Shown one piece after another: positions 10,680-54,419 of a DNA stretch of 64,000 bases. This DNA is from Patiria pectinifera. Taxonomy: Eukaryota; Echinodermata; Asteroidea; Valvatida; Asterinidae. The notes under the pieces were generated by a model. It was not told where the DNA came from. It was given only the letters and a program-made list of their open reading frames with translations, and did no database searches. Position 1 is the first letter of the stretch. Each line of letters opens with the position of its first letter. The translations under genes were made by a program, and so were the position numbers. The stretch spans positions 3,395,001 through 3,459,000 of the forward strand of contig CM057135.1 of assembly GCA_029964075.1 (NCBI GenBank), read 5' to 3'.

Positions 10680-11091
10680 AAATGTGTAAACGTGGAGCAG
10701 AACAAGTTAAATGGAAAGGACCGATCCCAGGAGCGGCGCGAGCAAACTCGATGTATGATCTGGTGGCCGTAGCGTCGGGCCAGCGCGCCCTGCTCTCGCA
10801 AGAACCGGGCCCGGCCTGGCACGCGGGCACGTCGACCGGCGCGGCAAGTGGGCGCACAGGCCCGGCACAAACGATGTCACCGTGCACGGTACGGCCACGT
10901 TGACCGACCGGGGATGGAATAAGTGGGCGCACAGGCCCAGCAAAAACGCTGCCACCGTGCACGGACTCATGTATTATCACTCCCAAACGGCCACCGTCCA
11001 AATCCCCGGTACTATCCCCCAAACTAGGCCCAAAAACATGCGAGGCAACTTGTCTCAACGGTCGACTTGTCTTTCCATTCATCGCACATAC
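10680..11091. other. GC-rich spacer between two minisatellites
   Basis: About 400 bp of GC-rich DNA (GGCCCGGC and GTGGGCGCACAGGCCC repeated twice) between the 19-bp and 17-bp arrays. No credible gene seen. Confidence 0.5.
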
Positions 11092-27989: not shown

Positions 27990-27994
27990 CATTT
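27990..27994. repeat. Left target-site duplication (CATTT)
   Basis: CATTT directly precedes the AG of the left TIR. The same five bases directly follow the CT of the right TIR at 43903-43907. Confidence 0.8.
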
Positions 27995-28251
27995 AGTAGG
28001 TATTAGTGGGGGATTCCAGACTTTGCCATAGGTCTGGGGGTAGTACAGGGCCAATGGGGAAAAGCCAGGGTACCAGACTTTACCCCCTCCCCCGTCTCTG
28101 CCCCTCCCATTGTACCCATCCCTTTCCAATGATCCCCGCCCCCAAATAGATCCCTCTCCCAATATATCTGTCTCCCTCCCCAAATATATCTCCCCTCTAG
28201 CTCCCCAAATATATCTCTTCTCTCTCCGAGTTGTTATATTATAAGTGGGGG
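27995..28251. repeat. Left TIR of copy B
   Basis: 257 bp, matching the reverse complement of 43646-43902 with two mismatches. The inner half contains three CCCAAATATATCTC-type repeats. Just inside it, ATAAGTGGGGGACAGGTACCAGACTTTACCCC (28241-28273) resembles the TIR start itself, as if an older terminus were nested inside. Confidence 0.97.
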
Positions 28252-32600: not shown

Positions 32601-33598
32601 GCAAAAATTAACGTGTACCCTTAATCCTAAACAAAAATATGTTTTGCACTACGTCACGTTGCAGTTGTATCTCAAACTCGGATTGAAACTTAAAAAGGTG
32701 CATCGAGTGCTGCAATTTAAACAAGCGCCTTGGATGGCATCTTACATCGACAAAAACACGCAACTTCGAACAAAGGCGACCTCTGATTTTGAGAAAGACT
32801 TTTTTAAACTGATGAACAACAGCGTGTTTGGTAAGACGATGGAAAACGTCAGAAACCGGATTGACGGTTACCTACTCAGAGACAGTAACGATGACGATCG
32901 AGATAAATACCAAAAAATTATACAGAAACCGAGCTACAAAACGACGACGTCATTTTCAGAATGCAAATTGTCATTTGTCGAAAAGTACAAGACTAAAACC
33001 GTGTTAAACAAACCAATCTATTGCGGTGTGAGTATCTTGGATCTATCTAAGACGCTGATGTACGATTTTTATTACAACCATTTGAAAGACAAGTACAAAG
33101 AAAAAATCAGGTTGATGTACACAGATACAGACAGTTTGGTACTCGTAGTGCACACGGACGACGTATACAAAGATATGCAGCAAAACGGGCAACAATACGA
33201 CCTTTCGAATTATCCGACGGATCATCCTTTGTACGACCCAACCAATAAGAAAGTGATCGGTAAATTTAAAGACGAGTTTGGAGGTAAAATAATCACAGAA
33301 GTCGTTTGTATAAGACCTAAAATGTACTCGATTTTAACCGCTGACATCAACTGGAAAAAGGCAAGGGAGTCACAAATCGGTCACCTCTAAGAAATTAAAA
33401 CACCGACACTATTACGACTGCATCTTAAACAAGAAATCTCATTACGAAACCATGACTCACATTAGATCGGAAAATCACATCCTTTACACCGTATCTCAAA
33501 ATAAACTATCGTTGAGTCCGTTGGACACAAAGAGGTACATTTTACCGGATGGAATACACACGCTCGCTTATGGTCACCGTAATCTAGATATTAATTAG
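29643..33598 (+). pseudogene. polB: Protein-primed family B DNA polymerase (pPolB), copy B
   Basis: About 1,300 codons. In order: SAP-like helical region (29660-29930), the NIKNKDNECLRWCLRAAL block, zinc finger FCRRCLCHYRTQVKLDRH (~30815), exonuclease YADFES (~31035), endonuclease-VII-like DHCHVTGRYRGAAH (~31487), HNLQNYDAH (~31585), motif A YLDANNLYG (~32320), motif B NNSVFGKTMENV (~32815) and motif C YTDTDS (~33118). Lesions: an extra A near 30141-30148, a stop at 31072-31074 created by mutually compensating A-run losses, a stop at 32209-32211, and a lost A near 33354. The catalytic motifs are intact. It would replicate the element by protein priming. Its stop overlaps the integrase stop. 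Confidence 0.95.
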
Positions 33599-34592
33599 GC
33601 GGTAATTGCGTGTCCTCGGGTACGACTTGAAGCTCTTGTCTCACAAAACTCCTTTTTGGGCCGTCTTGCAGGTAATAAAGAGTAGGACCTGTCGTGACTT
33701 TTTTACCTTCAATCATTTTAAATTGACTCGTTCTTTTTTCCACGTTGAAGATGTCTACGCTCCAAATGGGATCCGTGGCTCTTCTAGCAGTACCATCCTC
33801 TTGCTCGCCCGGGTAATATAAATATCTAACCATAGCGTCTTGCGGTAATTGTTGCTCTTTTGTTTTAACGGGGTTAGCCGGCGATTGCCGGACCTGTTTT
33901 AGTTTAACCGCCTCTGACGGCGCTTTAGCTATTAATCTCGTCGTTTCATCGTTTATAGCTTTGATCACGCTGGGTAATCGCTCGACCCATTGCGTGTTTC
34001 TACTCTCGGGATTTAACATTTCTTGAGCGTACTGATGACCAAACAGTCTCTCGGCTAGCGTTCGATTAAATCTTTCTACGATACCCTGCGATCGGTGGTT
34101 TCCGGGTTCGCCTACGATAATCTCGACGTTTTTTGAGGCCATCCATTTTTTAAAAGCGCCCTTAAATTCGGTACCGGCGTCTACTCTCAACGTTTTAGGG
34201 TAACTCAAAGGCGACCTCGCGTAAATCTTGACGATAGCATCCCGCGTGGAATCTGCCGTTTTAGAAACCAAAGGTTCTGCTTCGTGGTATCGACTCGCAA
34301 CATCGACAACCGTCAAAGCGTATTTATAAGTCTTGCGTTTTACTTTATCATAGGGTAGGTATAGCACATCCATTTGGTGAAAGTCGTTTGGTGTTTCAAA
34401 CTCTTGCGATGTACTCGTAGGCCTGGGTACATACGCAGGACCCGGTAGATAAATTTGCCATATCGCTTGTTTTTTAAGCCAATCTCTGATTACCTTTTTA
34501 TCGATTTTTGTTTTATCGTGTAAATGGTCGACGCCACTTTCACCTCTCCAATAACCGCTCGGGCTATAATACAGTTTAGATAATGTTTGCAT
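33591..34592 (-). CDS. int: Retroviral-type DD35E integrase, intact (copy B)
   Basis: 333 aa. The rve core is clear: D75 (HQMDVLYLP), D138 (RVDAGTEFKG) and E173 (GIVERFNRTL), a D-D-35-E spacing as in retroviral and Polinton integrases. The core is followed by a basic C-terminal part with a chromo/SH3-like DPIWSVDIFNV...RQELQVVP tail. No clear HHCC finger at the N-terminus. It would insert the element into the chromosome and make the short target duplication seen here. It is convergent with pPolB (8-bp overlap at 33591-33598) and divergent from the 140-aa gene, sharing a 31-bp AT-rich promoter gap. The only lesion-free enzyme gene in the window. Confidence 0.96.
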   Translation of the reverse strand: MQTLSKLYYSPSGYWRGESGVDHLHDKTKIDKKVIRDWLKKQAIWQIYLPGPAYVPRPTSTSQEFETPNDFHQMDVLYLPYDKVKRKTYKYALTVVDVASRYHEAEPLVSKTADSTRDAIVKIYARSPLSYPKTLRVDAGTEFKGAFKKWMASKNVEIIVGEPGNHRSQGIVERFNRTLAERLFGHQYAQEMLNPESRNTQWVERLPSVIKAINDETTRLIAKAPSEAVKLKQVRQSPANPVKTKEQQLPQDAMVRYLYYPGEQEDGTARRATDPIWSVDIFNVEKRTSQFKMIEGKKVTTGPTLYYLQDGPKRSFVRQELQVVPEDTQLPPN

Positions 34593-34623
34593 ATTATTTA
34601 ATATAAAAGACGTTTATAATAAT
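34593..34623. promoter_or_regulatory. Bidirectional AT-rich start region
   Basis: 31 bp separate the integrase and 140-aa start codons. Both sides carry TTTAATATAAAAG / TTTATATTAAAT within 25 bases of the ATG, the same type of element found before most other genes of the copies. Confidence 0.5.
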
Positions 34624-35046
34624 ATGGCTAGCGTTGCTATGATGTTAGGAGGCGCGATCGTCAACGCCTTAGCTTTTACGGGTTCAAACTTTTTCTTTTC
34701 AAATCTGAAACAGAGGGACGAGGAGCGTAAGAGACACGATTTAGCGATAGAACAACTCTCAGCCGCCAAAGATAAGTGGCAACGAGAACGAACGAAATAT
34801 CTAGATTTTCTAAACGAACGTATCAGAAAACAAAATGCCTCTAAAGAAACATTTTCCAACGTAGACCGAGCGTTGCGTTACTACAACGAGGTGAGTGGAC
34901 ACTCTACCGAACTACCCGTAGGACTGCAACACGAACCCAAACTCGAAGATTTTTACGAGCCTAGCGACCAACAAATAGAAAAAGAACTGGTGTTTATCAC
35001 GGGAGGAACGCTATTGGTGGGCTTCTTGGCTTACAGATACCTTTAA
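34624..35046 (+). CDS. 140-aa coiled-coil membrane protein of Polintons
   Basis: An N-terminal hydrophobic segment (MMLGGAIVNALAFTGSNFFF) is followed by a charged helix (KQRDEERKRHDLAIEQLSAAKDKWQRERTKYLDFLNERIRKQ, in part) and a C-terminal membrane span (FITGGTLLVGFLAYRYL). I recall this arrangement from small proteins next to the capsid gene in Mavericks. Function unknown; a minor virion membrane protein is a guess. Intact here. In copy A only its first seven codons survive, fused to capsid sequence. Confidence 0.8.
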   Translation: MASVAMMLGGAIVNALAFTGSNFFFSNLKQRDEERKRHDLAIEQLSAAKDKWQRERTKYLDFLNERIRKQNASKETFSNVDRALRYYNEVSGHSTELPVGLQHEPKLEDFYEPSDQQIEKELVFITGGTLLVGFLAYRYL

Positions 35047-35068
35047 ATTTAAAACTCGTATAAATAAA

Positions 35069-36333
35069 ATGAATGCGTATGGAAAAAAGCTCAATCCCAG
35101 CAGACTATTAAAAATACCCAGATCTATCAAGGGTGAGAGAAAAGAGGTGGTCATTACCCACAATCCCAGTAGTATATCGGCGGGGCAAACGCTGAGGGTC
35201 AAGTTTCCTCAATTGGGTGTAGACGACGTGATCGTACCCGGCACTTGTAAACTAGCTTTCAATTTAGAACTCGAAGGTGGAAGCGACAACAATAGAACCA
35301 TTTTTGGTAATTTAGCCAGAAATTTAGTCAGCGAAATCAGCGTCAGGCTTCAAGGTCACGAAATTGTGAGTTATCGTCACGCCGACGTGTATCACAACTT
35401 TAAAGACAATTGGATCAACAGCTCGACGACTCGAAACATGGCGTACTCGGGCATAGAAAAAGAAAACGTGTCTAAACTAAGAACTGGGGCTGAAGATGCT
35501 AACGCGGGCGCCAACAACGGTAAGGATCAAGCTATCGCGGATGCCTATGGTAACAGATATTGTATTCCCTAGACATTGACATACTGACTTCGCATCACCC
35601 TTTTACCCCAGCGGTTTAAAAACCTCTGACGTACGAGATAAAGTTTAACGATCACGAAAAAGTAGTCAACAGTTCAGATACGGCGGCGATGTATTCTATC
35701 TCAGACTTGTCTCTCGAATACGAAGTGGTGACCAACAGAGACCTAGCTATCACCATCAGGAATAAACACAAGGGGTTAATGCAATATCTGTTTGATAAAA
35801 TCCACTCGCTAGAAGTTAGATCCGTCAACAAATCGGACACGCTTTGGAACGTCAGCGTTAATCAACCCATCAGGAGTCTCAAGGGTATTTTGTTTTTGTT
35901 TAAAGATCCCGCTGTCAAAAATCCGCAGCGATTTTACAATCCAAAAATAACCAAAACATCGGTGACCGTAGAAGGTAAACCCAATCAACTCTACAGTCAA
36001 GGCATGTTTCAGTATCAACACTGGAATGAAATCAACAAGTTCTTTGGAGACAGCGATACCGAAAGCGGGCGCGGAGTAGCTAAAGACTTAAATTTGACGG
36101 GTTTTGACCTCGGAGACTACCTAAAAGACAAGTACGGTCTGTGGCTCGATTTTAGAAGTAACGACGACAATTCCGCTCACGGATCCGGTAGGAAACTTGG
36201 AGACGGAGGAGGCATCAACATTCAATTTAACAGAGAAGCCGAAGGTCAAGGTGACCTCACGATGTACGTATTTTTAGTCATGGATGCTCAATTGAACTTG
36301 GAAGACGGAAATTTTAAATCTCTGTTAAGTTAA
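35069..36333 (+). pseudogene. MCP: Major capsid protein, double jelly roll (copy B, broken)
   Basis: About 420 codons in two frames. The N-terminal part has the typical SISAGQTLRVKFP...VIVPGTCKLAFNLEL and LVSEISVRLQGHEIV strands. The C-terminal part has YGLWLDFRSNDDNSAHGSGR and TMYVFLVMDAQLNLEDG, patterns I know from Polinton/adintovirus major capsid proteins. Two small lesions lie between about 35565 and 35640: a stop right after RYCIP, and a second frame break/stop ~55 bases later. It lies 22 bp after the 140-aa gene and 1 bp before the ATPase, so capsid and ATPase are tightly linked. In copy A the first two thirds are deleted. Confidence 0.88.
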
Positions 36334-36334
36334 A

Positions 36335-36938
36335 ATGACACAACCGCATTGCGCTTTAATCGTCGGCAAAACAAATTCGGGCAAAACCAAATGGATTTTG
36401 GATCTGTTAGAGTCAGACTATAAAAACACATTTGAAGCGATAGTCATCATTTGCCCTACCATATTTAAAAACAAAACGTACATCGAAAGAAAGTGGATTA
36501 AAGCAGATCCCGAGGTATACCTCTGCGATCCGGAATTGTACAAGATGACGCTCAACGAAGCGATCGATTTTTACAGGAAAATATTTGAAGGTGTTGCCAC
36601 GTTGTTTATCGTGGACGATTGCTCTTCGGATCAAGAGATTAAATATCGTAAAGACGTGCGCGCTAAGCAAGATGGCATTTAGCGGAAGACACGTAAATCA
36701 CAGCTGTTGGTTACTGACCCAAAAGTACAACAGCGTTTTAAAAGATTATAGAGAAAACACGGCTTGGTTGGCGTTATTTTACTGCAAAGATAAAACATCG
36801 TTTGATCAAGCGTTAGACGAAAACGACGTCGTACCCATTGAACAACGAGATTATATAAAACGACGTTTGAGAGATGTGAAATATAGTAAATTGGTCGTAT
36901 ACACCGAACCTCCAGTTAGTTACGAGCTACTTGAGTAG
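36335..36938 (+). pseudogene. Genome-packaging ATPase, A32/FtsK-HerA type (copy B, frameshifted)
   Basis: A P-loop GKTNSGKT lies at residues ~11-18 and a Walker B-like TLFIVDDCSSD near residue 92. After the break comes CALSKMAFSGRHVNHSCWLLTQKYNSV, fitting the arginine-finger/sensor region of these ATPases. Small base losses at about 36648-36665 shift the frame. Both halves are otherwise open, and the C-terminus (YSKLVVYTEPP...LLE) is complete here but truncated in copy A. The protein would drive DNA into the capsid. Confidence 0.88.
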
Positions 36939-36980
36939 CTAGGTGAGTAACAATTCATAGCTAGTTGAGTAACAATTAAT
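36937..36980. repeat. Two tandem 22-bp repeats, copy B
   Basis: Units AGCTAGGTGAGTAACAATTCAT and AGCTAGTTGAGTAACAATTAAT correspond to the four-unit array in copy A (1859-1946). Related AGCTAGGTGCTCAAG follows. Confidence 0.93.
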
Positions 36981-37117
36981 AGCTAGGTGCTCAAGTTAAA
37001 TTACCTAGCTGCTTAACTAATAGGACCTAGCTTAGTAGCAACCTATTTAACAAGCTACACTTGTATTTCAATTTGTTAATCAATAAACGTCAACAAAATA
37101 CATTTTGCTGTTAGTAA

Positions 37118-37270
37118 ATGATAGCAATATTCGAGTATTTGCAGTTTTTGGCTATTATCATCATATCGCTTAATCTATCGTTTTATACATACGAATATCT
37201 CCGCTTTTGTAACAAAGTTGCAACAGCTACAACAAAATTAAATTCGTTTCTAATTAAATGGAGGACCTAA
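37118..37270 (+). CDS. 50-aa small membrane ORF (copy B)
   Basis: Homolog of 1569-1721 in copy A, with the hydrophobic FLAIIIISLNLSFY segment and the same overlap of its stop with the start of the 192-aa gene. The frame is open in both copies although neighbouring genes have decayed. No family recognised; a small membrane peptide is the most I can say. Confidence 0.5.
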   Translation: MIAIFEYLQFLAIIIISLNLSFYTYEYLRFCNKVATATTKLNSFLIKWRT

Positions 37271-37836
37271 AACTGACTTTAACGAACGAACAAGATCACA
37301 ACGCAGAACATAAAGATCGTTTGTGCGGTGTCGTAGCAGCCGGAAACTCTAGAAAGTACTTGGGAAAGGAATACACCGTTAAACATATCGAAGCTCTTGA
37401 CAGTAAAGAACTCGAAAAGCTGTATCATCTGTACGAAACTAAATTTGGAAATGAAATTGTTAAAACCGTTGGTAAATACACTTTAAGTCTATTTTCGAGA
37501 GTGTTAGCTGTTGTTACACCCGTACAAGTTTTAGGATATAACGTCACTATAGATTCTGAAGAAGAACTCACCAACGACTTGAGTTCCGATCCTATTATAA
37601 GCGCGAGTATGGCTGGTATGTTGAGCGACGTTTGTTACAAGTACGGAACTTTAATATCACCCCTAGTTGCTACGATTATCACAACAAAACATTTGAAATT
37701 TAATAAACCTAATATAATAAATGGAAGATCAGAAAGCAGCGACAGCAACGCCTGCGGCTCAACCAGCAGAGACAGAGACGTCTCAACCGATAAAAACAAC
37801 GACATCACCGACGGTAACGAGAGTGACCAAGACTAA
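37258..37836 (+). CDS. 192-aa Polinton protein of unknown function (copy B)
   Basis: It has the same domain pattern as in copy A: a DSKELEKLYHLYETKFG helix, a hydrophobic YTLSLFSRVLAVVTPV stretch, an acidic EEELTNDLSSDP segment, a second hydrophobic stretch before TTKHL, then a polar tail. The last 39 codons overlap the 127-aa gene in another frame. The TAAATG start overlaps the 50-aa ORF. It seems a standard Maverick gene, function unknown. Ends within the window in A and B; partial in C. Confidence 0.8.
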   Translation: MEDLKLTLTNEQDHNAEHKDRLCGVVAAGNSRKYLGKEYTVKHIEALDSKELEKLYHLYETKFGNEIVKTVGKYTLSLFSRVLAVVTPVQVLGYNVTIDSEEELTNDLSSDPIISASMAGMLSDVCYKYGTLISPLVATIITTKHLKFNKPNIINGRSESSDSNACGSTSRDRDVSTDKNNDITDGNESDQD

Positions 37837-38104
37837 AAATCCTAAACGAATACAGCAGGGTAAAGCTTTAGCCGAGCACAATAGACAGATGAAATTAAAA
37901 TTAGCAAAAATGAACGTAACATCGGACGAAGCTACGAGCTCACCAGACTACAACTCTTGGGCGATGTGGGGGGCTATAGCGTCTATAATAGGGGTGGGGC
38001 TGCTGGTACTAAAAAGTAAGGCAACTGCGCCGATAGTACAGCCAGTGCCGGTAGTCACGCAACCCACTACACCCAGCGTCCCCAAAACGCTAGACATGGA
38101 ATAA
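37721..38104 (+). CDS. 127-aa basic, single-membrane-span Polinton protein (copy B)
   Basis: A Pro/Thr/Ala-rich N-terminus, a Lys/Arg-rich KNPKRIQQGKALAEHN segment, one membrane span (WAMWGAIASIIGVGLLVL) and a Pro/Val tail ending before TLDME. It starts within the 192-aa gene (TAAATG). All three copies keep it open. The basic patch could bind DNA and the span a membrane; that is inference only. Confidence 0.8.
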   Translation: MEDQKAATATPAAQPAETETSQPIKTTTSPTVTRVTKTKNPKRIQQGKALAEHNRQMKLKLAKMNVTSDEATSSPDYNSWAMWGAIASIIGVGLLVLKSKATAPIVQPVPVVTQPTTPSVPKTLDME

Positions 38105-38137
38105 ACCAGCAATTTAAAAATTGTTATATTAAAAACG

Positions 38138-38380
38138 ATGAGTAACTTTGACACCAACGGAATAGCAAATACGATTTATCACGGAGCCGTCATATCGGGT
38201 CTTTCGATGGGATACGCTATGGTAGGAGCTAAACTATTCAAAATGAAAGCGCCGGATTTAAACAAACTAAGCGTAGAAGATGCGGCTAAATTGACGGGCA
38301 TTATAAGTGGAGCTCTGGCCACGCAATATTGGTTGGTGACCCAGGGTATACTACCTGGCAGTATAATGAAAACGGCATAA
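38138..38380 (+). CDS. 80-aa membrane protein of Polintons (copy B)
   Basis: A hydrophobic N-terminal helix (HGAVISGLSMGYAMVGAKLF) and a C-terminal half with LSVEDAAKLTGIISGALATQYWLV...GILPGSIM. The KLxVEDxxKLxxxxxxxxATxxxLVxxGILP pattern recurs in adintovirus-like elements as I remember them. Function unknown. Its ATG is preceded at about 10 bp by GTTATATTAAAAACG. Intact in B and C, truncated in A. Confidence 0.78.
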   Translation: MSNFDTNGIANTIYHGAVISGLSMGYAMVGAKLFKMKAPDLNKLSVEDAAKLTGIISGALATQYWLVTQGILPGSIMKTA

Positions 38381-38402
38381 TTTAAATAGGTTTATTAAAT
38401 AA

Positions 38403-39668
38403 ATGGCTGAGGGAGGATTTGACTTTGACCCCGTTGATGATTACGATTACGATGACGATGATGATGTAGCAGAGACCAATTTGGACGACAACTTTGATAC
38501 TCCTGTACCACCAATCCTCACTACCGACATAGATGACGTTTTAGATCAAGGAAGAAGCATGCTCACTAATGGTCGCGTTGATGAGTTTTACGATACTTAT
38601 AACATATACAATAAACCAATCTCTCCGAGATACGAAAAATTTATTCTCAACACAGAAGGTTTATTTTATGACACTGGTAAAGGCTTACTAAGGTTAACGG
38701 ATCAAAGAAAACCAGACAGATTCTTGACTCTGAGGACTATAGAGTTAAATGTAAGAAAGATGGGCTTAAACGGTAGAGATTTTATTAGAAAGGAATTAGG
38801 CTTTACGCATTACGAACGTAAGACACTCAGTGACGATCAAAGTCAACAACTGCAATCGATACAACCCGAGAGTATCCCCATGACAGAACTACCCAGAGTC
38901 CCCGATGAGGTTATCGAGATTATAGACGATTTAGAACAAGACACCGGCGCTCAAACAGAAGGATTGAATTACAGAGAACTCCAGGGTTTAGACAAAACTC
39001 TTCAGACGTTGAGAGGTAACCTAGAACTTAATTTAGCGCGTCTCACAGAACTGGACCGAGAGATTGCGGCCACGAGACAAGAACTCGACGAATCTCACAG
39101 CGAAGAGGGTCGACGAGAGTTAAACGATAAATTGAGCGACTTGAACGTTGAAAGATCTGCCAGATTAGAAGCCGCAAAAGCCAACGAACGAGGGCTCAAA
39201 AGTCAGATCGCTAGAATCAAAGAAACGATTAATAAAATATTAGGCGACGACACGACTCTGGCGGAAAAGATCAGAACTCTGTTTAGAGAACAAGGTGTGA
39301 CCGTAGTGAGTATTTTAGCCGCTTTGAGTTTAGCCATCAGCACGATAGTGAGTAGCATCGTCGCTAGCGTGAGAGGTGCAGGTGCCCCACCCGCGCCAAC
39401 ACCAGCACCAACACCAACACCAACACCAACACCAACACCAAAAGGCGGTATCAAAGAGTGGATTTCAAAACAACTCACTAATTTTGCATCTGCTCTTCAA
39501 AAACTCGGAGTGAGCGCGTTGGGTGCTCTGCCGGGTATCATAGGCAGCGTACTCAGTTGGATATTTAACGCGCTGAGTAAGTCCGTATCGTGGTTGGCCG
39601 AACACGTGTGGGCTTTGTTTTTGGGTGTGGGAGCCTTGGTGTTTGCGTACCTGCAAAAACGATGGTAG
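38403..39668 (+). CDS. 421-aa acidic / coiled-coil / amphipathic membrane protein (copy B)
   Basis: Residues 1-35 are strongly acidic. Residues ~47-139 form a domain that differs sharply from copy C. Residues ~180-270 are a long coiled coil (LQTLRGNLELNLARLTELDREIAATRQEL region). TLAEKIRTLFREQGVTVVSILAAL and a hydrophobic stretch follow at ~280-325, then a PTPTPTP linker and a C-terminal amphipathic/hydrophobic part (ISKQLTNFASALQKLG...WLAEHVWALFLGVGALVF). I know the C-terminal pattern from other Mavericks, and a membrane-disrupting or internal virion role has been suggested for such proteins. Intact here; broken in A and C. Confidence 0.8.
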   Translation: MAEGGFDFDPVDDYDYDDDDDVAETNLDDNFDTPVPPILTTDIDDVLDQGRSMLTNGRVDEFYDTYNIYNKPISPRYEKFILNTEGLFYDTGKGLLRLTDQRKPDRFLTLRTIELNVRKMGLNGRDFIRKELGFTHYERKTLSDDQSQQLQSIQPESIPMTELPRVPDEVIEIIDDLEQDTGAQTEGLNYRELQGLDKTLQTLRGNLELNLARLTELDREIAATRQELDESHSEEGRRELNDKLSDLNVERSARLEAAKANERGLKSQIARIKETINKILGDDTTLAEKIRTLFREQGVTVVSILAALSLAISTIVSSIVASVRGAGAPPAPTPAPTPTPTPTPTPKGGIKEWISKQLTNFASALQKLGVSALGALPGIIGSVLSWIFNALSKSVSWLAEHVWALFLGVGALVFAYLQKRW

Positions 39669-39690
39669 TAATAGTTGTAATCAAGTTTAA

Positions 39691-39743
39691 ACAAAAAAAT
39701 AAAAGCCTTACCAGCACAAAGTTGGTAAGGCTTATTTTTTTGT
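39691..39743. terminator. Hairpin with poly(A) signal between convergent genes (copy B)
   Basis: An inverted repeat of about 21 bp pairs ACAAAAAAATAA...GCCTTACCA with TGGTAAGGCTTATTTTTTTGT around a 9-base loop. The + strand carries AATAAA at 39698-39703; the - strand has AATAAG. It sits between the stops of the 421-aa (+) and 444-aa (-) genes. Copy C has the same structure with AATAAA on both strands. Confidence 0.8.
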
Positions 39744-39759
39744 GTGATTAGAGTGTGAC

Positions 39760-41153
39760 TTATCGCATTGCCTCGTAAGCTAAAATACCCATGCCAACGA
39801 TAGCTAATATTCCTACCGTCAACGATAATCGTCTTGGTGAGTTTGTAGTTTCGTGGGCTCCTGTGTTAAAACTGTAGGTGCTGGTGTTGGTGAGGGTGTT
39901 GGTGCTGGTGTAGGTGATACAACATCGTTCGTCATAGGCTCTAGGGGTGTTGGTGGCGCGACGTCATCGGTGTCATCAAAAGAGTCGTCCGGTTGAGGTT
40001 GTGAGTTTAAATCTGGCACCAAACCAGTATTCATACTCTGGGTAGCGATTTGAAGATTGTTGTTATAGCCGTCGTGCGTTCCAACCCTCAAGTTCATATC
40101 CGATGGAATTAAATACAACCCCGGTTTCACGACAAAATTTAAAGGCGTTCTGGCATACTGCAAAGAGTCTTGAAATTGATTGATACTCGTTTCCATGTCG
40201 TCTACTGCATTGATGATATCTTCAACGATGACGTTAAATTGTCTCTGAGCGTCTAATCCAGTGCCCGGTGATAATACGCTCGTTTTTGTTTGAGCCTGCG
40301 CACCGAGTAAAGCGTACACGTAAGATCTGATTGATTCGTTGATCTTTATGATTCCCACGGGGGTAAACGAACTCGTGTCGGGTATAAAATCTAACCAAGC
40401 CTTTTGCACCGATTCATTTTGTTCGATGTAAATAACCGTCCAAGGAACGTAAAGGCTTCCACTCTTTTTGGGACTGTCTAGACCGTGATAGCCGCCGTAA
40501 AGAACGTTGGGTTTGTTGGGTAATGCTTTATCGTATTCACCAACCGCCACAAACTTGCCTTTATTAAAGATATATGAGGTACCTAAACCGTTAGAGTTTG
40601 TGTCTCTCGTCTGTTTAAAAGACTTGTTTTGATCTATGCCAAACAACAAGCAGGTATCGGTAAATGCTCTGTGATTATAACTGTTGTCTAGAGCGTTAAA
40701 TGCGTCATCTCCCGGTAAAGGAGCGGCAAAGTCGTACAGGATCTTTCTAACCGTAAAATATAAATGAAAGTTAAAGATGGCCCAAACGTAACGGTTGCTC
40801 GCGTTTAAAAGATCGAATCCAATACCGCAGCCCGTAGTAGCGCAGTAGATCGCAAAATTTAACTGATTTTGATAAAACGACATGGGGTGTGATTTCCAAC
40901 GATCTACATCCTCGTCCGTCTCAACGTGAGGCAATTTGTAGTCCGAGGTTAAGTCGGGAAACATGGTTAAAAACCCGTTGGTATTATTAACTATGACCTC
41001 CAGTTCACTGGGTTTAGTGCTGTTTAAAAACTTTGCTTGGGGTGCAGCTTGATGTTTTAGCTCGTTTGCCTTGGCTACATTTTGATTTACTTGTCTCGTT
41101 ACCTGATCGGCTATCGATTGTATCTGCTTTTTTAACGACTTAAAATCACTCAT
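39760..41153 (-). pseudogene. 444-aa-type protein with variable domain, Pro-rich stalk and lost C-terminal anchor (copy B)
   Basis: Starts MSDFKSLKKQIQSIADQV (helical). The conserved body (YQNQLNFAIYCATTGCG, NRYVWAIFNFHLYFTVRKILYDF) precedes a segment at residues 192-241 that is unlike copy C. A second conserved block (SVQKAWLDF...SSFTP, QAQTKTSVLSPGTGLDAQRQFN) and a PTPAPTPSPTPAP stalk follow. Loss of four A bases near 39831 shifts the frame, so translation ends at 39819 and misses a membrane span (LTVGMLAIVGMGILAYEA) still readable to 39760. Stalk plus anchor plus variable domain suggests a surface protein. I do not recognise the family. Confidence 0.75.
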
Positions 41154-41194
41154 TATTTTAGTTTCAGTTTTAATATAAAAAGACTTTAAAATAA
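41154..41194. promoter_or_regulatory. Bidirectional start region between the 444-aa and penton-like genes
   Basis: The 41 bp between divergent ATGs contain TTTTAATATAAAAAG. The + side ends ...TTTAAAATAAATG and the - side ...CTAAAATAATG. Copy C keeps the same layout (60533-60573). Confidence 0.5.
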
Positions 41195-42376
41195 ATGCAT
41201 TCGTTTCACTTGTTTCAAAATGAGCAGACGTTTAAATTAGAAGACGTCGTAGATAATTTAAACGGTCAAAAATCTATACGCGTAAAAAGGGTGTTGTTTA
41301 ACGCCGGATATTTTAATATTTTCAGCGCCACGGAGATTGATTGGTTTACGCAAATAGATGGGAGACCCGCGTTTACCACAGATAAACCTCCCCTCATACC
41401 TGAGGAGTTTCTTTCAGATGTACACATAACAACGCCGGATAGAGATTTGATAGAGCGATTGTTACCCGATATACCATACCACTATTTAGTTAACGATGAA
41501 AATGTTTTACAAAAAACTATAAACGATCCTATAAAAGCGTACGAAGACGATAGACTAGAATCCGTTTTAGAATCAAACAAAAGAAAAAGAGCTATTATAG
41601 CTGAACGGCGAGGGTTGATTTTAGCCGCCATGAATTCAGAAACACCAAAAACTGAATTAGAACTTAATACGCTTCAATCTTTAGTAAGAATATTATTTGT
41701 TAGAGAAAGAAAAATCTTTGAAGGTGAGGAATTGGCTTTAAAGTTTATTGAAGGAGAAATGGGTGCGAGCGAGTTGAGCGAGTTGAGAGATAGTAGAGAA
41801 GCAGGAGTGATTATAAGAGGAAGTCTTATCGTGACGGGTGATGATTTCGATTTTATTCCTCCGAGTCATTTAGAGCCGTTGCCACTCGGAAGTATCGGTT
41901 CGGTCATCATACCGCCGGGGTGGTACGACGTCGATTGGTTCGATTTTATTTTAAATTCTATACCCGGGGTAAGTTTTCGAGTATTTAGAGAATCTAAAAA
42001 GGTGACGTTGGTGATAACCGACGTAAATCTCAAATTGCGTTTAAACAGAGAAGTATCTCGATTACTCAGTTTACCCAAAGGAAGACTGGTACCCAAAGTG
42101 GTGTACACGGGATATTACGACGTTAATCCGTTTAAATTTTTGTTTATTCGCTGCCCGCAATTAAGTACGAGTGAAAACTTTTTTAATGGTCGTCCTTCTG
42201 ACATCTTGAAAATCGTACCCGTGGGTACGCACAAACCCGAGCCTGATAGAGTCGAGGATTTCAAAAAACTTAAAAACGGTATAATCGACAAACTGACATT
42301 TTCTATCAGCGGTGAAAAAGGACAGGTATTCAACAATAAGGGTGAGGGTATCATTATCGAGTTGGAGATCTTTTAA
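41195..42376 (+). CDS. Putative minor capsid/penton-like protein, 393 aa (copy B)
   Basis: Residues 1-190 contain DGRPAFTTDKPPLIP and a charged helical part. Residues ~205-393 contain VIIPPGWYDVDWFDFILNSIPGVSFRVF, KVTLVITDVNLKLRLN, then YDVNPFKFLFIRCPQLSTSENFFNGRPSDILKIVPV and a final ISGEKGQVFNNKGEGIIIELEIF. The IPPG(Y/W)Y...LLxIVPV...GEGxIIxLxF pattern resembles minor structural proteins of Polintons as I recall them. Intact in B and C with few differences. Divergent from the 444-aa gene. The penton assignment is an inference that needs structure comparison. Confidence 0.65.
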   Translation: MHSFHLFQNEQTFKLEDVVDNLNGQKSIRVKRVLFNAGYFNIFSATEIDWFTQIDGRPAFTTDKPPLIPEEFLSDVHITTPDRDLIERLLPDIPYHYLVNDENVLQKTINDPIKAYEDDRLESVLESNKRKRAIIAERRGLILAAMNSETPKTELELNTLQSLVRILFVRERKIFEGEELALKFIEGEMGASELSELRDSREAGVIIRGSLIVTGDDFDFIPPSHLEPLPLGSIGSVIIPPGWYDVDWFDFILNSIPGVSFRVFRESKKVTLVITDVNLKLRLNREVSRLLSLPKGRLVPKVVYTGYYDVNPFKFLFIRCPQLSTSENFFNGRPSDILKIVPVGTHKPEPDRVEDFKKLKNGIIDKLTFSISGEKGQVFNNKGEGIIIELEIF

Positions 42377-42402
42377 TTTTAAAATCTTTTTATATTAAAA
42401 AC

Positions 42403-43051
42403 ATGAGTGTAGATGGTAAGGCGTTATACCCCGATATTTCTGGAGATGTACTCCGATTAAATAGTAACGAAGAAACAAAAGTGACTTAAAAAGATTGAAG
42501 AGATTCGATCTTTAATCTTGAAAGAGAGAGACCACCGAGAGCGCACTTATAAAAAAATAAAGAGAGTGATCGACACTATTAATTACGTAGAGATAGGATT
42601 AGAAGGATTGGGGGCTATAGCGGGGGCTGTCAGTATTCCCGCTCTCTTGGGTGTTATATCAGCTCCCGTTGGATTGGTGCTAGAAGGAACGTTTATAGGC
42701 GCTTTTGGTGTAGATATTCTGCTTAGAATCACGTCTAAGCGATTATCCGCCAAGCTGAAAAAGCACGACCAGATTAAAATATTAGCAGACTCCAAACTTA
42801 ACACGATTGAAGAATACGTGTCTCAAGCCATCAACGACGGAGATATATCGCACGAAGAGTTCTTATTGATTACGAGAGAGCTCGCAAAATTTAACGAGCT
42901 TAAGCAAAAAATTAGAACAAAGACCAGCACAAAGCTTCAAAAATTAAAAACGATAGAGACTTTGAAAAGAAGTTAAAAACGGGTAGACGAACGGCTGGCA
43001 AAAGAAAAAAAATCTCTTATCGAAAAACTTACAAGTTCAAATTCTCGGTAA
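42403..43051 (+). pseudogene. 216-aa-type coiled-coil/two-span membrane protein (copy B, broken)
   Basis: Homolog of the intact copy C gene at 58678-59328. A 5-bp loss near 42483 shifts the frame to a stop at once. An open middle part (42518-42976) holds the ERDHRERTYKKIKRVIDTINYVEIGLEGLGAI helix and the IPALLGVISAPVGLVLEGTFIGAFGVDILL hydrophobic region. A 1-bp loss in the A-run near 42965 causes a second frame change before the basic tail. The family is common in Mavericks; function unknown. Confidence 0.85.
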
Positions 43052-43079
43052 ATAAACATTATGAAAGCGATCCGCCGAG

Positions 43080-43552
43080 TTATACCTCTATTTCACCTCT
43101 TAGGGCAACACCCTCGGCCCCGCCTTTATTGTAGTGGTCATCGTATCTTTTTAGTGCTTTATTAAATTGATTTTGAGTCACTTTAAATAAATCTTTAACT
43201 CGTTCTTTGTTCCATCCAACGACGTGATGATAACACGCCGCTATTAACGACCGTTTTACGCATCCGTTTCCCTCAATGTTTTGTAATTAACGAGCTCGTT
43301 ATATTTATTGATTGTTTCTTGGACATCTTCTGAGTCTTGCTCTGGACAAACAGAAAATATAAGTTTCTCCACAGTTTTTCTTTTGTTTCTTTTTAAAGTT
43401 GACCAATTGATACGATCTTCTTGCGCATTTTCTGCCGAAAAATCAAAGTAACGTGAAACTATTTCACCGCACGTTTCACAAACTAAAAAACCATTCTCGA
43501 TGATTATATGATGATCGCACTGATCTGTTTTATTAGATAGCTCGAGGTTCAT
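43080..43552 (-). pseudogene. TFIIB-like transcription factor, small (copy B, one frameshift)
   Basis: Residues 1-98 are open: an N-terminal zinc-ribbon-like C12-x2-H15 ... C25-x2-C28 (ending GFLVCETCGEIVSR, typical of TFIIB/TFB ribbons), then a charged linker. A 1-bp loss near 43260 gives a stop. The next frame continues to a stop at 43080-43082 with RSLIAACYHHVVGWNKERVKDLFKVTQNQFNKALKRY (in part), which reads like a TFIIB cyclin repeat (SLIAAC...TxxEIAxxxxVSxxTIxxxYK). About 158 codons in total, half of cellular TFIIB, so it has a ribbon plus one cyclin-like repeat. It starts 93 bp from the right TIR and reads inward. Not a gene I associate with Polintons. Confidence 0.65.
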
Positions 43553-43645
43553 TTATTAAAAATGATTTATTTGTTTAAATAAAGTTTTTAAAATAGACAG
43601 AGGGAGATGCCTAGACAGAGGGAGATATGGGGTTTGTCGCCGTAC

Positions 43646-43902
43646 CCCCCACTTATAATATAACAACTCGGAGAGAGAAGAGATATATTTGGGGAGCTAG
43701 ATGGGAGATATATTTGGGGAGGGAGACAGATATATTGGGAGAGGGATCTATTTGGGGGCGGGGATCATTGGAAAGGGATGGGTACAATGGGAGGGGCAGA
43801 GACGGGGGAGGGGGTAAAGTCTGGTACCCTGGCTTCTCCCCATTGGCCCTGTACTACCCCCAGACCTATGGCAAAGTCTGGAATCCCCCACTAATACCTA
43901 CT
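43646..43902. repeat. Right TIR of copy B
   Basis: Reverse complement of 27995-28251 with two mismatches; ends ...ATACCTACT. Just inside it lies GGGTTTGTCGCCGTACCCCCC, which matches the extreme terminus of copy A. Confidence 0.97.
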
Positions 43903-44306
43903 CATTTACAGTACTATACCTGTACCTTTCTCTAATTGTTCCGTGGAGTCACTGATTTTATACATTTTTTTAATACAAATTTATACATGTATGTACCGAA
44001 GAGACACACGTGTCGGTATTATTAATATGGTACTTGGAGATTCTGTTCCAAAGTTTGGCTCTATGCAAAGCTTTCTAATACGTGTACAACCAAACAATTT
44101 CAGCCAATTAATATCAAGAAAGTATGTGGTATATCAGCAAAATGTTGAAAACCCCACACAATTCGAGATTCAGCCACATGCATACCCTGAAAGTATCTGC
44201 TTGACCCCTCACAACCCCCAACCCCACCCCCCCCCCTTTAAAAAAAATGTGAATAAATGAATTATGAATGCTCCTTCAGTAAGATTTACATGTACGGTAC
44301 ATATAA
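43903..44306. other. Flank right of copy B
   Basis: Begins with the CATTT(A) target duplication. No gene seen; a poly-C run at 44227-44236. Confidence 0.5.
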
Positions 44307-45262: not shown

Positions 45263-46432
45263 TTAAGAGTCATTTCGTGTAAATACTTCATATAAGTGTC
45301 CACGCTCAAAAAATCGAATTTTTTTAAAACTTTGTGGGATGAAAGGACTTTGGGAGCAAGTAGCCAAAATAGACTTTTTAATCCGATATTTTGCCCGTTG
45401 CCATGGTTACGGGCCATTATGTGTTTTGGCCATTTTGGGGCAATTTTGAGGCTGCAAAAATTCATTTTTTGCGTTATTTTCAAAGGTCATCAACCCAAAG
45501 TGCAAAGTAATGTCACGAAAGTAACTATATCACGACAAAGTATCATCCTTACCCTAAGAAGAAAAAAATAAGAACACTTTTGAAAAATCTCCTTTATATT
45601 ATTTTTAGGCCCTATAATACAGCATGTTTTTACAACTAGCAAAATTGCATTTTTTACCCTATTTTTATCCCTCCAAAATGGCACTTGCCAGGGCACTCAG
45701 AATAATTTCCCTCCGGCTATGGTTAGTTCAGACATTGGTCTTTTCATATCTGGTGAGAAATTTTTGGGTTATTGTATAGCCTTTGTGCAGTAGCGCTCCA
45801 AAAATGGTAAAATTCACAAAAACCTTAAAAAGTGTATTTTCAGTGTTTTCCTTTTTTTGGGGTAATAAACTTGTATAATTGGTATTGTTCATGAATCAAG
45901 CACATTTTCACAAACAAAATTAGACTGTTTATCATTTTTAGACCATTGGATGAATATTAGGTAGTGTACTTCCCCCCACACCTGGCTAGGCCCCGCCCAC
46001 TCCCCCCGTGCCACCTAATTTTGAACGTGTATGTTGCATAACGAAACAAATGTAAATAAATAATATGCAAGTGAACACTTTAGAAATAACATAGAGTTCC
46101 TTTTCAAAGCCTCCCCTTCCCCCACCCCGGGGCATTGCTTGGGGTTGATTGTGGGGTGTGACCACCCACCAATAACTTAGCATTGTCGGTACAATCATTG
46201 TCACATGGGCAAAACTCATGTGTTTGCAAGCCGCAATGAATAATACTGGCCATATCCATTGTCCTCTGATTGAAGCTAGGCCCCGCCCCTTCCTTGCCAC
46301 CAAATTCAGATGTTGATTTCTGCATGTATTTGCCTAAATTAAATTGTAAATACTAGATATCAATTTGAAAGTGAACCTTTTACGATCTACACCAACAGCC
46401 GTCGCACAGATAGCCCCTTCCCCTGCCACCCC
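45263..46432. repeat. Left arm of the 4.3-kb palindrome
   Basis: About 1.17 kb. Similarity to the right arm runs from TTAAGAGTCATTTCG through CACCAACAGSCGT to CCCTGCCA. Indels and substitutions are scattered, so the arms are not freshly copied. Confidence 0.8.
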
Positions 46433-48370: not shown

Positions 48371-49576
48371 TGGCAGGGGGTGGGCTGTGAGACGGGTACG
48401 CCTGTTGGTGTAGATTATGAAAGCTTCACTTGCAAATTGATATCTATTTACAATATTAATTTAGGCAAATACATGCAGAAATCAACATCTGAATTTGGTG
48501 GCAAGGAAAGGGGCGGGGCCTAACTGGGAGGGGAGGACTGGACATCATTGGAATGATGGTGCACTTCAATCAGAGGACAATGGATATGGCCAGTATTATT
48601 CATTGCGGCTTGCAAACACATGAGTTTTGCCCATGTGACAATAATTGTACCGACAATGCCAAGTTATTGGTGGGTGGTCACACCCCACCCTCAACCCCAA
48701 GCAATGCTCCCGGGGTGGGGGAAGGGGAGGCTGTGAAAAGGATCTCTATGTTATTTCTAAAGTGTTCACTTGCATATTATTTATTTACATTTGCTTCGTT
48801 ATGCAACATACAAGTTCAAAATTCGGTGGTACAGGGGGAGTGGGCGGGGCCTAGCCAGGTGTGGGGGGAAGTACACGACCTACTATTCATCCAATGGTCT
48901 AAAAATGATATACAGTCTAATTCTGTTTGTAAAAATGTGCTAGATTCATGAACAATACCAATTATACAAGTTTATTACCCAAAACAAAGGAAAACACTGA
49001 AAATACACTTTTTAAGGTTTTTGTGAAATTTACCATTTTTGGAGCGCTACTGCACAAAGGCTATACAATAACCCAACATTTTCTCACCAGATATGAAAAG
49101 ACCAATGTCTGATCTAACTATAGCCGGAGGGAAATTATTCTGAGTGCCCTGGCAAGTGCCATTTTGGAGGGATAAAAATAGGGTAAAAAATGCAGTTTTG
49201 TTAGTTGTAAAAACATGCTATATTATAGGGTCTAAAAATAGTATAAAAGAGATTTTTCAGAAGTGTTTTTCTTTTTTTCTTTTTAGGGTAAGGATGATAC
49301 TTTGGCGTGATATAGTTACTTTTGTGACATTACTTTGCAGTTTGGGTTGATGACCTTTGAAAAAAACGCGAAAAATGAATTTTTGCAGCCTCAAAATTGC
49401 CGAAAAATGGCCAAAACACATAATGGCCCGTAACCATGGCAACGGGCAAAATAAAAGTTTGAAAAGTCTATTTTGGTTACTTGCTCCCTAAGTCCTTTCA
49501 TCCCACAAAGTTTAAAAAAATTCGATTTTTTGAGCGTGGACACTTATATGAAGTATTTACACGAAATGACTCTTAA
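48371..49576. repeat. Right arm of the 4.3-kb palindrome
   Basis: Inverted partner of 45263-46432. Short open frames in both arms correspond to each other but are shared non-coding sequence, not conserved proteins I recognise. Confidence 0.8.
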
Positions 49577-50469: not shown

Positions 50470-53400
50470 AACTGGGAGATTTAGATAGGTAGGTAGGCAT
50501 CTGTCAATCTCGGGGGATTATGGGGTTCTGCCCTGAATGTCTGGTTGGTGAACAGCGTCTGCTGTGGCTGTATAGTCCAATGCGGGAATGACAGTCCCGG
50601 CCACAGTGAGCGCAGAGGAACACTGAGGTGGGTCTGTCTGCTGGCCGCTGTGCCTTTCTATGTTGTCTTTTCTCCTCCGCCTGCCGCATCACCTCACTCT
50701 CGAGCTGCTGGATCCCCTTGTTCACTTTGTGCCTCCAGGCACATCTATCTGCTGCTACTGTCTCCCAGGTATTGGTATTGATGGCGAGTGCCTTGAGGTC
50801 ACGTTTGCAGGTGTCCTTAAAGCGCAACAGGGGTCGCCCAGCATTCCTCTTGCCCGATGCCAGCTCTCCGTAGAGAAGGTCTTTGGGATGCGGCCGTCCT
50901 CCATTCGTACGACGTGTCCCAGCCAGCGCAGGCGTCTCTGTTTCAGGAGAGTGAGCATGGAGGAGACTCCTGCCCTCTCAAGCACCGCCCTGTTGGTGAT
51001 ATGGTCTCTCCATGAGATGCCTAAGATGCGCCTCAGGCAGCGCATGTGGAAGGCACTGAGCCGTCTTTCCTGACGAGAGCGCAGGGTCCATGACTCGCAT
51101 CCATAAAGGAGCGTACACACTACGCACGCCATGTAGATCTTGGCCTTGGTGTGCTCTGTCAGCTTGCTGTCTGTCCATGCACGCTTTGTAAGCCTGGCCA
51201 TTGATGTTGCAGCCTTTCCAATGCGCCTGTTAAGCTCGGTGTCGAAAGAGAGAGTGTCAGAGATTGTAGAGCCCAAGTACACAAAATCGTGGACTGCCTA
51301 TAGCTCGTAGTCTGTGATGGTTACGGAGGGCGGCTCATCGACATCCTGTCCCATCACCTGGGTTTTCTTCAGGCTGATCGTGAGGCCGAAAGCGTTGCAG
51401 GCTTCGGCGAAGCGATTCAGTAGCTGCTGCAGGTCTTCTGCTGTGTGGGTGGTAATCGCTGCGTCGTCAGCATACAGGAAATCCCTGAGGAGTCTCATGT
51501 GCACTTTCGTCTTGGCATGGAATCTAGACAGATTGAATAGGTTTCCGTCAGACCTCGTGCGAAGGTAGATGTCCTCTGTGGCTGTTCCAAAGGCGTGCTT
51601 AAGCAGGACAGAGAAGTAAATGCCAAACAGAGTCGGAGCAAAGACACAGCCCTGCTTGACTCCGCTACGGATGTTGAATGGCTTTGATGTTGTGCCATCG
51701 TACACAATGGTACCCCTCATGTCCTCATGAAAAGATCGTACTAGGCTGAGGAGAATTGGCGGGCAACCAATCTTTGCCAGGATCTTGAAGAGTCCGTCCC
51801 TACTCACGAGGTCGAAAGCCTTCGTTAGGTCAATAAAAGCGATGAACAAGGCCTTACTCTGTTCCCTGCACTTCTCCTGAAGCTGCCTGAGGGAGAACAC
51901 CATGTCGATGGTCGACCTCCTGGCTCTGAACCCGCTCTGTGACTCTGGGTACACTCTTTCAGCAAGGATCTGGAGTCTGACCAAGATGACTCTGGCGAAG
52001 AGTTTACCGACAATGCTGACCCTAACCCTCTGTCCAGCACCGGCACAGAAGTTCGTGAAGCTCCTTAATGAGTGTCCCCTTGCCGCACTTAAGAACTTAA
52101 GGTGGAATGCCGTCACCACCGGGGGCCTTCCCTGAGGAAAGTGCATCCAGCGCCTTCTCGACTTCTTCCATTGTCGGCTCTTGGTCGAGGTTGTCCATAG
52201 TGGGCAGACGCTGTACTGCATCCAGGGCTTCTGTGCTGACCAGGTTCTCTCTGGAGTAGAGTTCTGAGTAATGCTCCATCCAGCGATTCATCTGCTGGTC
52301 CCGATCCTTGATGATCTCTCCGGTGGCTGACTTGAGGGGAGCTGACTTGTTTTGTGTGGGGCCAATTGCCTGCTTGATTCCTTCATACATGGCCCTTACG
52401 TTGCCGACGTTGGCAGCAGTCTGTATGCTGGAGCAGAGTTGAAGCCAGTAATCATTGGCACAGTGCCGTGCGGACTAAGGAACTCTGCTTCGGGCTGTAC
52501 GGAGTGCCTGCAGGTTCCCCTCTGATGGCAGGTTCTTGTAGGCTGAGAGGGCTTGTCTCTTTTCCTTGATGAGGGGTAACATTTCCTCTGCATTGGCCTC
52601 AAACCAGTCAGCTGACTTGTTTTGCCTCTTGCCGAAGGTGGACATTGCAGCATTGTACATGTAGATGGTGTCCCTAAGGTGTGACCATCTCACATGGGTG
52701 TTATTGCTGGGCGGTCCAGGTAAGACATTTTCCATTGCCTTAACAAACTCTTCCACCTTATCGGGATTGCGAGTCTTGCTGGTGTCGATGCGAGGTCTGC
52801 CCTCTTTCTTTGCTCTGTGGAATCTCTGGGGTTGAAGCTTTACTTTGCCGCCTACGAGAGAATGGTCGGTGTCGCAGTCTGCGCTCTGGAAGCTTCGGGT
52901 CAGTTTGACACTTCCAAGACCACCGCGTCTTGTAAGCACCAGGTCGAGCTGGTGCCAGTGTTTGGACCTGGGGTGTCTCCAGGATACCTTGTGCTGGGGC
53001 TTGGTGTCAAAGAAGGTGTTGGTGATGCATAGATTGTGGTGACAGCAGAGCTCTAGGAGCCGCTGCCCATTTTCATTCATCTTCCCAACTCCAAATTGGC
53101 CCAAGCAGGAGGGCCAAGAGCTGTGATCGGCACCGACTCTGGCGTTGAAGTCACCAAGAACGAAGACTGGCTCTTGCTGAGGTACTTCTGTAACAGCGGA
53201 GCTAAGGTCTTCGTAGAAGTTGTCCTTTGTTTCCGCAGAGGATGTCAGTGTTGGTGCATAGGCACTAATGAGGCTGACCATTCCTGCTGCTGTGTGGAGC
53301 TGGAGCTTGGGGATCATTTCGGAGCCCTCAGTGGGTGGTACAATGGAGCCCAGCAGTCCGTTCCTGACGGCAAAGCCAACACCGTGTATCTTGGTCTCTT

Positions 53401-54419
53401 CAGGGGGTTTACCCAGCCAAAAGAAAGTAAATTCCTTCTCCCTGATGGTGCCGGACGAGGACAATCTTGTCTCTTGGAGGGTGACAATGTCCATCTTGAG
53501 CCTGCTCAGTTCGTTGTTGATAACAGCGGTCTTACGAGCATCAGTCACTTGCTGTAGGTCTTCTGAGAGGCCCGGTGTCATGGTCCTTACATTCCAGGTA
53601 CCCAGTCTGATAACTGGGCTGTTTTGTTTTTTCTTTCTTTGCCTGGTGCACAGTTATCGATCCGCTTGTCGGAGTTAAGCCTAAGCCCCACGCACCCAGT
53701 GGAGCAGGCGGACCGTGGCGGGACAGCACCTTATTGGCTGGGGGCTGCCCAGCTTGAGGCGGGCGGTAGCTATCCAGATGAAATCCTAGAATTTCTCCCA
53801 CCGTCGGGAGCGGCCCCTGGCTTATCACCGGTAACTGCTGCTCCCCGTGTTGTGTCGACGCTATGAAGCGACGCTGGAGTGTCCTCTCCAGGGCAGAAGC
53901 CTGGGCAGTAGTAATGGAGAATCGGCTGTCGCCCATGCAGCAGATCCCCCCTCTCCATGCCACCAATGTAGTCCAAGGGAAGGGCAGATGCCGATACACT
54001 TGGCACCAGTGTCATCGCAGGAGTTGCCGGAGTGTAGCTGAATACAGCTGCAAACCGCCTAAGGGACTCCAGCTCCAGATCTTTCCTCAGGGTTGACTTC
54101 CGAAGCCTTTCCCGTGGATGGGTATGCCGCAAGGCAGCGGAGGTTTGAGATCAGGGTTTTCCTTCCCCTAGATGAGCTGCCTTCCCAGGCTGTCGAGCCC
54201 CACCTACCCGAAGCGTCTGGTTTTGAGGCGCCAGATACCCGCCTTCGCCCCTTCTCCTGTCGGTCGGTAAAAGCAGATCCGCCGGGCTTAGAGATTAAGC
54301 CACACGAGCAGACCAGGAGTTGGACTTTGGTTGTTAGAGGCTCTTTGGTACGCATGCCATTGGGAGCTTTTTATGGGTATTGGGCGCTTATCCCCAGCTA
54401 CCACCCGGCTTAACAACCT
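50470..54419 (-). pseudogene. LINE (APE-type non-LTR retrotransposon), near full length but broken
   Basis: Reading leftward there is a 5' leader (54419-53620), then an EEP endonuclease from about 53620 (LGTWNVRTM, DIVTLQETRL, FVLGDFNARVG, DLVLTRR, CDTDHSLV). The linker is followed by the RT (52221-51298: GFRARRSTIDMVFSLRQL, IAFIDLTKAFDLVSR, GVKQGCVFAPTLF, catalytic FLYADDAA). The post-RT region (51282-50755: LYGCESWTLR, RRLRWLGHV) and a C-terminal finger (CAHCGRDCHSRIGLYSH) ending at 50504 complete it. Stops and frame changes near 52475, 52390-52221, 51298 and 50800 break it. The clade (RTE/CR1-like) is not settled. Host of origin is a standard animal genome. Confidence 0.85.

Follow-up and report, generated by a model that had tools for sequence, protein, structure and literature searches.

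A Polinton gene for a likely TFIIB-type protein with a zinc ribbon and a single cyclin repeat in the sea star Patiria pectinifera

Cellular TFIIB docks RNA polymerase through its zinc ribbon, and its second cyclin repeat holds TBP and the upstream TFIIB recognition element (BRE). Large nucleocytoplasmic viruses generally encode RNA polymerase subunits. To our knowledge, the expression of Polinton genes has been little studied. TFIIB-type factors are described from nucleocytoplasmic large DNA viruses (marseillevirus A0A481YU70 and D2XAL5, iridovirus-group proteins and the abalone asfa-like virus C315R homolog), and in the accessible parts of two papers TFIIB is named as a giant-virus marker (PMC12638062) and treated as a giant-virus gene (PMC11464507). 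What appears to be a virophage is described in the latter as depending on the giant virus's machinery and encoding no transcription factors. Nothing about TFIIB occurs in the available passages of PMC11071308, PMC3671162, PMC11071296 and PMC10120064. The gene described here lies in a 64-kb stretch of P. pectinifera DNA (the window, G000:C7:3395001-3459000), which holds three Polinton copies (A, B and C); it belongs to copy B and likely encodes a relative of TFIIB. The whole assembly spans 613.5 Mb in 1,020 contigs and behaves as eukaryotic, with intron-split host genes. No TFIIB-like gene of a Polinton turned up in the Polinton/Maverick, adintovirus and virophage literature, as covered by titles, abstract beginnings and term counts of papers mostly outside subscription.

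In copy B the gene is divided between two frames that overlap at 43256-43286. A relative in one frame, P0001 (158 amino acids, from a 5,175-base ENA contig), is 89 % identical to the first frame (E 8.8e-49). The features of the gene are the following:

43256-43552, minus strand: first frame of the TFIIB-like gene (98 amino acids), with the zinc ribbon, a short linker and the start of the cyclin repeat
43080-43286, minus strand: second frame of the TFIIB-like gene (68 amino acids), with the rest of the cyclin repeat and the tail (SLIAACYHHV...TQNQFNKALKRY)
43469-43519, minus strand: span of the zinc-ribbon ligands, C-x2-H-x9-C-x2-C in sequence
43122-43408, minus strand: single cyclin-repeat region, five predicted helices, crossing the frame break; numbering transferred from residues 50-145 of P0001
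43553-43602, minus strand: promoter-like AT-rich stretch before the gene, with TTTAAA boxes and TTTTTAATAA at the start codon
58548-58598, plus strand: remnant of the gene tail in copy C (tblastn, 70.6 % over 17 amino acids, E 6e-4)

The first-pass annotation of this DNA had described a gene of about 158 codons, half the size of cellular TFIIB, that starts next to the terminal inverted repeat, reads inward and carries a ribbon pattern and a cyclin-like segment in two frames. This observation is confirmed: both frames were found on the minus strand (43552-43256 and 43286-43080), the gene begins 93 bases inward of the right inverted repeat and reads towards the interior of the element, other copies have open frames of 157, 158 and 171 amino acids, and TFIIB in PDB chain 29vf_M has 316 amino acids. 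The cyclin-like segment is present but longer than noted, starting near residue 50 and spanning the frame break. The accompanying interpretation, a self-encoded initiation factor related to TFIIB, is partly supported. The gene is not a chance reading frame, because P0001 is a one-frame relative and the first frame is matched at the best 150 of 611 candidate places in its own genome, each with E ≤ 8e-57. Among 5.8 billion proteins P0001 was the sole relative found; IMG/VR held no confirmed homologue with either frame, the integrase, a polymerase piece or a capsid-region piece, and none turned up in a phage collection. With no confirmed outside relative but P0001, no deep alignment is available.

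In common with cellular TFIIB the predicted protein starts with a ribbon bearing C-x2-H and C-x2-C ligands, and a probable cyclin repeat comes after it, in the same order and helix register. It differs in being of half the length, with one such repeat and a linker of approximately 15-20 residues, and in lying beyond the reach of PF08271 and PF00382. The TFIIBs of large viruses are also longer, at 266-339 amino acids compared with 158. Large viruses encode RNA polymerase subunits (megavirus, in the accessible text of PMC11464507), whereas none was recognised in Polinton copy B.

The N terminus reads as a zinc ribbon with four ligands and is predicted to bind zinc. Its pattern (C-x2-H, C-x2-C) is identical to that of a host TFIIB exon, which matches PDB TFIIB chains at E 8.8e-14 to 5.4e-15. 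The yardstick was a set of 99 TFIIB-motif frames from archaea, of which the 89 fitting a C-x2-C, C-x2-C ribbon pattern were retained. Searched against 2,491 sequences, the archaeal ribbon profile returned 94 archaeal proteins (all with TFIIB motifs), then a host TFIIB exon and host BRF2, and directly after these the first frame of the Polinton gene (rank 97, 11.3 bits, E 0.029). The first frame thus scored best among sequences outside the TFIIB family and stood ahead of all other window frames of at least 60 amino acids; P0001 followed it (8.1 bits, E 0.28). With MAFFT in local and generalised-affine modes, residues 50-146 of P0001 pair with the first cyclin repeat, interrupted by one gap of a single residue and another of three; in global mode there is a further gap, of eight, within the first part. 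In a test that required the archaeal ribbon profile first and the first-cyclin-repeat profile after it, P0001 scored 30.4 and 16.6, a sum of about 47 against about 24 for the best of 1,506 decoy windows, from which frames with three TFIIB motifs had been removed beforehand. The ribbon score was reached by one decoy, a real archaeal TFIIB, the cyclin score by five, and both by none. TFIIB identity is likely but not certain.

Two host genes met in these comparisons merit description. Host TFIIB exons occur twice on contig C10 (1610973-1613356 and 1767535-1769838, ~157 kb apart), either as a duplicated gene or as an assembly duplicate. Host BRF2 (L012 271-1674, minus strand, contig C5) is a 468-amino-acid open frame that looks intronless and matches the PDB chain of the TFIIIB 50 kDa subunit at E 8.4e-27.

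Searches with sequence collections and curated families weigh against TFIIB kinship. No TFIIB match was obtained in Pfam, NCBIfam or PDB sequences at E up to 10, and the Pfam family check that the first-pass annotation had proposed was therefore negative. A whole-genome search with PF08271 and PF00382 gave 15 matches each, to host genes and chance frames and none at the listed gene copies. With hhalign, the score of P0001 was reached on the full archaeal profile by 10 of 426 decoys (eight are listed, of which five carry the motif used for picking loci and one is a TFIIB fragment), on the ribbon by 3 of 426 (one of them the same TFIIB fragment) and on the cyclin part by 78 of 426; the corresponding counts among 300 shuffles were 0, 0 and 44. 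When 20 copies were added to the query, the hhalign probabilities were 30.8 for the full profile, 64.5 for the ribbon and 0.3 for each of the first and second repeats. A semi-global test without the order requirement had 12 of 1,200 decoys reaching the cyclin score and 6 of 1,200 the ribbon score, with 1 of 600 shuffles in each case. Taken singly, the evidence from any one tool is too weak. Two leads were set aside: PF00382 also matched five frames on contig C2, of which the one read (L162) looks unrelated, with a sequence that we take to be RING/B-box-like; and in a 27-row alignment that included longer pieces of archaeal TFIIB the cyclin part was misplaced, so that this alignment was left unused.

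Two AlphaFold models, both of low confidence, show three strands and five helices. The first, made with no TFIIB rows in its alignment, has TFIIB at Foldseek ranks 1-2 at E 0.43 and the strand and helix order of TFIIB. The second, with TFIIB rows added and hence partly circular, has TFIIB as its top match (E 0.004); against a viral structure library, viral TFIIBs were among its top matches (E 4.3e-3 to 5.1e-2), with nameless entries at ranks 1-2. The fold anticipated by the first-pass annotation is tentative in these low-confidence models, and the TFIIB kinship that it proposed finds support in the ordered profile test, the ligand pattern and these models but not in the Pfam families. A TFIIB-type ribbon with a single cyclin repeat is supported, not certain.

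An alternative, unlikely though worth keeping in view, is that the product regulates by binding DNA through a zinc ribbon unrelated to TFIIB and has a helical domain with no more than a resemblance to a cyclin repeat. The curated models gave no match, the cyclin half is weak alone, and two decoys with other cysteine pairs outscore P0001 on the hhalign ribbon profile. In addition, virophages and some Polintons have zinc ribbons that lack a cyclin part (PMC3671162). These too are small zinc-ribbon proteins in a related class of elements, but they are described there as C2H2 ribbons, either standing alone or joined to a GIY-YIG nuclease. Such a regulator would not readily account for an ordered ribbon-plus-cyclin match above all 1,506 decoys, nor for a model that places TFIIB first and has its strand and helix order without any TFIIB rows.

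The gene is a Polinton gene. Copy B has terminal inverted repeats, a 6-bp target-site duplication and a retroviral-type integrase, and shares with Polinton/Maverick elements the inverted repeats, the rve integrase, an A32-type ATPase and the 6-bp flanking repeat; no TFIIB-like gene turned up for those elements in the literature covered here. In each of the 52 fetched stretches, which represent 49 distinct places counting that of the window, the TFIIB-like gene is accompanied by the same neighbouring gene; the distance is 1.2 kb in L007, and in the others the two lie close together. A copy-B-type inverted repeat was present in 17 of the 52, many of which are too short to reach it. The proposed Polinton setting, the position beside the inverted repeat and the coding status of a conserved gene are supported by the inverted repeats, integrase, conserved neighbour, intact copies and selection. 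The Polinton features of the window are:

Base 1 to ~8,000, reversed: Polinton copy A
27995-43902: Polinton copy B, carrying the TFIIB-like gene, with terminal inverted repeats, integrase, ATPase-like frame and CATTTA flanks
~58,500 to the right window edge, reversed: Polinton copy C
27995-28251, plus strand: left terminal inverted repeat of copy B (257 nucleotides, 99 % to the right repeat)
43646-43902, minus strand: right terminal inverted repeat of copy B (257 nucleotides, 99 % to the left repeat)
27990-27995 and 43903-43908: target-site duplication of copy B, CATTTA, read from the element ends; the left one overlaps the called inverted repeat by one base, its last
33591-34592, minus strand: Polinton integrase (PF00665, retroviral type, E 1.2e-11, 45.2 bits against a cut-off of 32.6)
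36335-36682, plus strand: first piece of a packaging-ATPase-like frame (Pox_A32, E 0.0016, under the cut-off)
42403-42976, plus strand: Polinton gene next to the TFIIB-like gene and convergent with it; in copy B this frame is broken as well

Among the copy B frame pieces scanned with Pfam none matched a polymerase model, that of protein-primed DNA polymerase B included; the frame at 32212-33390 holds YTDTDSL, which is presumably a polymerase motif. Elsewhere in the window, a 19-base unit is repeated in tandem between Polintons (23 register copies, 10165-10791), and an 823-nucleotide inverted repeat of 94 % (45309-46131 and 48709-49531, ~2.6 kb apart) right of copy B is perhaps another mobile element. 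Minus-strand frames at 50504-53653 resemble, as reading frames, a retrotransposon of the non-long terminal repeat type (endonuclease and reverse transcriptase).

AT-rich sequence abuts the start codons of copy B. Thirteen starts were considered, namely the 18 ATG-led frames of at least 80 amino acids, minus five internal to broken genes (30319, 31207, 32248, 35689 and 36672) and one on the other strand between the gene and the repeat (43627), plus the start at 42403. The 40 bases upstream are 83 % A+T at these starts and 61 % at 50 control ATGs, each followed by an open frame of at least 60 codons. TTTAA[A/T], a motif chosen after the data had been viewed, lies 17-30 bases upstream of 9 of the 13 starts compared with 2 of the 50 control ATGs; it occurs in 6.3 % of 4,121 windows of at least 70 % A+T and in 8.4 % of 332 windows of at least 80 %. 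The best single 6-mer did not exceed dinucleotide shuffles (P 0.16), and a two-box pattern written from the data was present at 7 of 11 starts, with at most 4 in shuffles. Three types of 5' end occur among copies of the TFIIB-like gene (MNLEL..., M[T/N]FFQSENLEL... with its relatives, and MEYFE[A/T]PQLG...), and the TTTATTTAAA box is kept in two of these three classes. Divergent gene pairs at 34592/34624 and 41153/41195 each have one short spacer in common. The start motif is resembled by poxvirus late promoters, with their AT-rich core, spacer and TAAAT at the start. Such a motif before most genes fits an initiation factor of the element's own but does not prove one.

On balance we lean slightly towards a pared-down TFIIB-type initiation factor that would dock on host RNA polymerase II and aid starts at the AT-rich promoters of the element. 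Docking on the host polymerase would fall to the zinc ribbon, and contact with promoter DNA or the polymerase wall to the single cyclin repeat; the TTTAA[A/T] boxes may be the target for recognition or positioning. Host TBP would be used, since Pfam recognised no RNA polymerase or TBP gene among the 16 other copy B frames scanned. The second repeat is missing: its profile gave no signal in P0001 (138 of 1,200 decoys were equally good), and one repeat takes up residues 50-145 of a frame that stops at 158. Any engagement of TBP would proceed without it.

Because of this lack, a dominant-negative role comes closest among the functional alternatives. A TFIIB-derived protein without the repeat that holds TBP could sit at the polymerase dock and lower transcription of the host, and the single repeat, the short linker and the ligand pattern shared with host TFIIB would all suit it. 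A dedicated initiation system accounts more readily for the AT-rich start motif common to the element's genes, and an anti-host function is improbable.

Across 48 loci (L001-L008, L019-L038 and L170-L189, the window's copy included), an uninterrupted frame runs from ribbon to tail in 32 and is broken in 16. Broken frames are thus confined to a minority of copies, among them the window's, which cannot itself make the full protein. The break falls in the same short stretch in L001 (the window's copy), L002, L028 and L029 and nearby in L004; a slippage-prone site may be responsible, or these copies may have the break in common by descent or gene conversion. By hand count, 139 of the best 150 of 611 candidates have open frames of at least 150 amino acids, mostly 157 or 171 from stop to stop, in a list that favours intact copies because it is ranked by similarity. 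The second piece of another copy, used as query, gave at least 150 scored matches (best 150 of 538 candidates). Copy A has a 158-amino-acid open version of the gene ~1.05 kb left of the window (L185). That copy also shows an internal deletion of ~2.7 kb (G000:C7:3392500-3395100, L190), between a 421-amino-acid gene and the gene adjoining the TFIIB-like gene. In the 32 intact copies the last two ribbon cysteines are present in all and the first in 31; the search pattern demanded the histidine and permitted C, F or G at the first ligand place.

Among these 32 copies the ratio of nonsynonymous to synonymous polymorphism (pN/pS) is 0.24 for variants in at least two copies and 0.92 for copy-private ones (Fisher P 5e-5), the private class being inflated because three copies hold local out-of-frame stretches. 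With those three removed, the 29 copies give 0.23 shared and 0.71 private (P 0.012). For the cyclin part by itself the values are 0.19 and 0.63 (P 0.014); for the ribbon part by itself they are 0.40 and 0.65, which is not significant (P 1.0). Selecting copies by protein similarity and intactness lowers pN in both classes. The pattern is one of past purifying selection, as for a gene maintained as the element multiplied and decaying after insertion. That it is functionless in this lineage and only carried along, as the 16 broken loci, the window's own included, and a copy C in which tblastn matched the tail and no other part of the gene might suggest, is very improbable, given shared variants poor in amino-acid changes (pN/pS well below 1) and common intact frames. 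By hand count, 33 of the best 150 scored copies are on contig C7, where ~11 are expected from its 7.3 % of the assembly, and 32 of the 33 sit in its first 22 Mb; C7 is thus Polinton-rich and perhaps a special chromosome.

A broader proposal is possible, if tentative: some animal Polintons may bring their own one-repeat TFIIB, which with host RNA polymerase II would define an element-specific promoter class of AT-rich boxes abutting start codons and link Polintons that depend on their host to giant viruses that have initiation machinery of their own. If true, a small element would take over the step that chooses the transcription start site, and its protein would be a very small natural TFIIB, a ribbon and one repeat, suited to testing the role of each half. 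Because so many intact copies occur in one genome, RNA data could test this directly.
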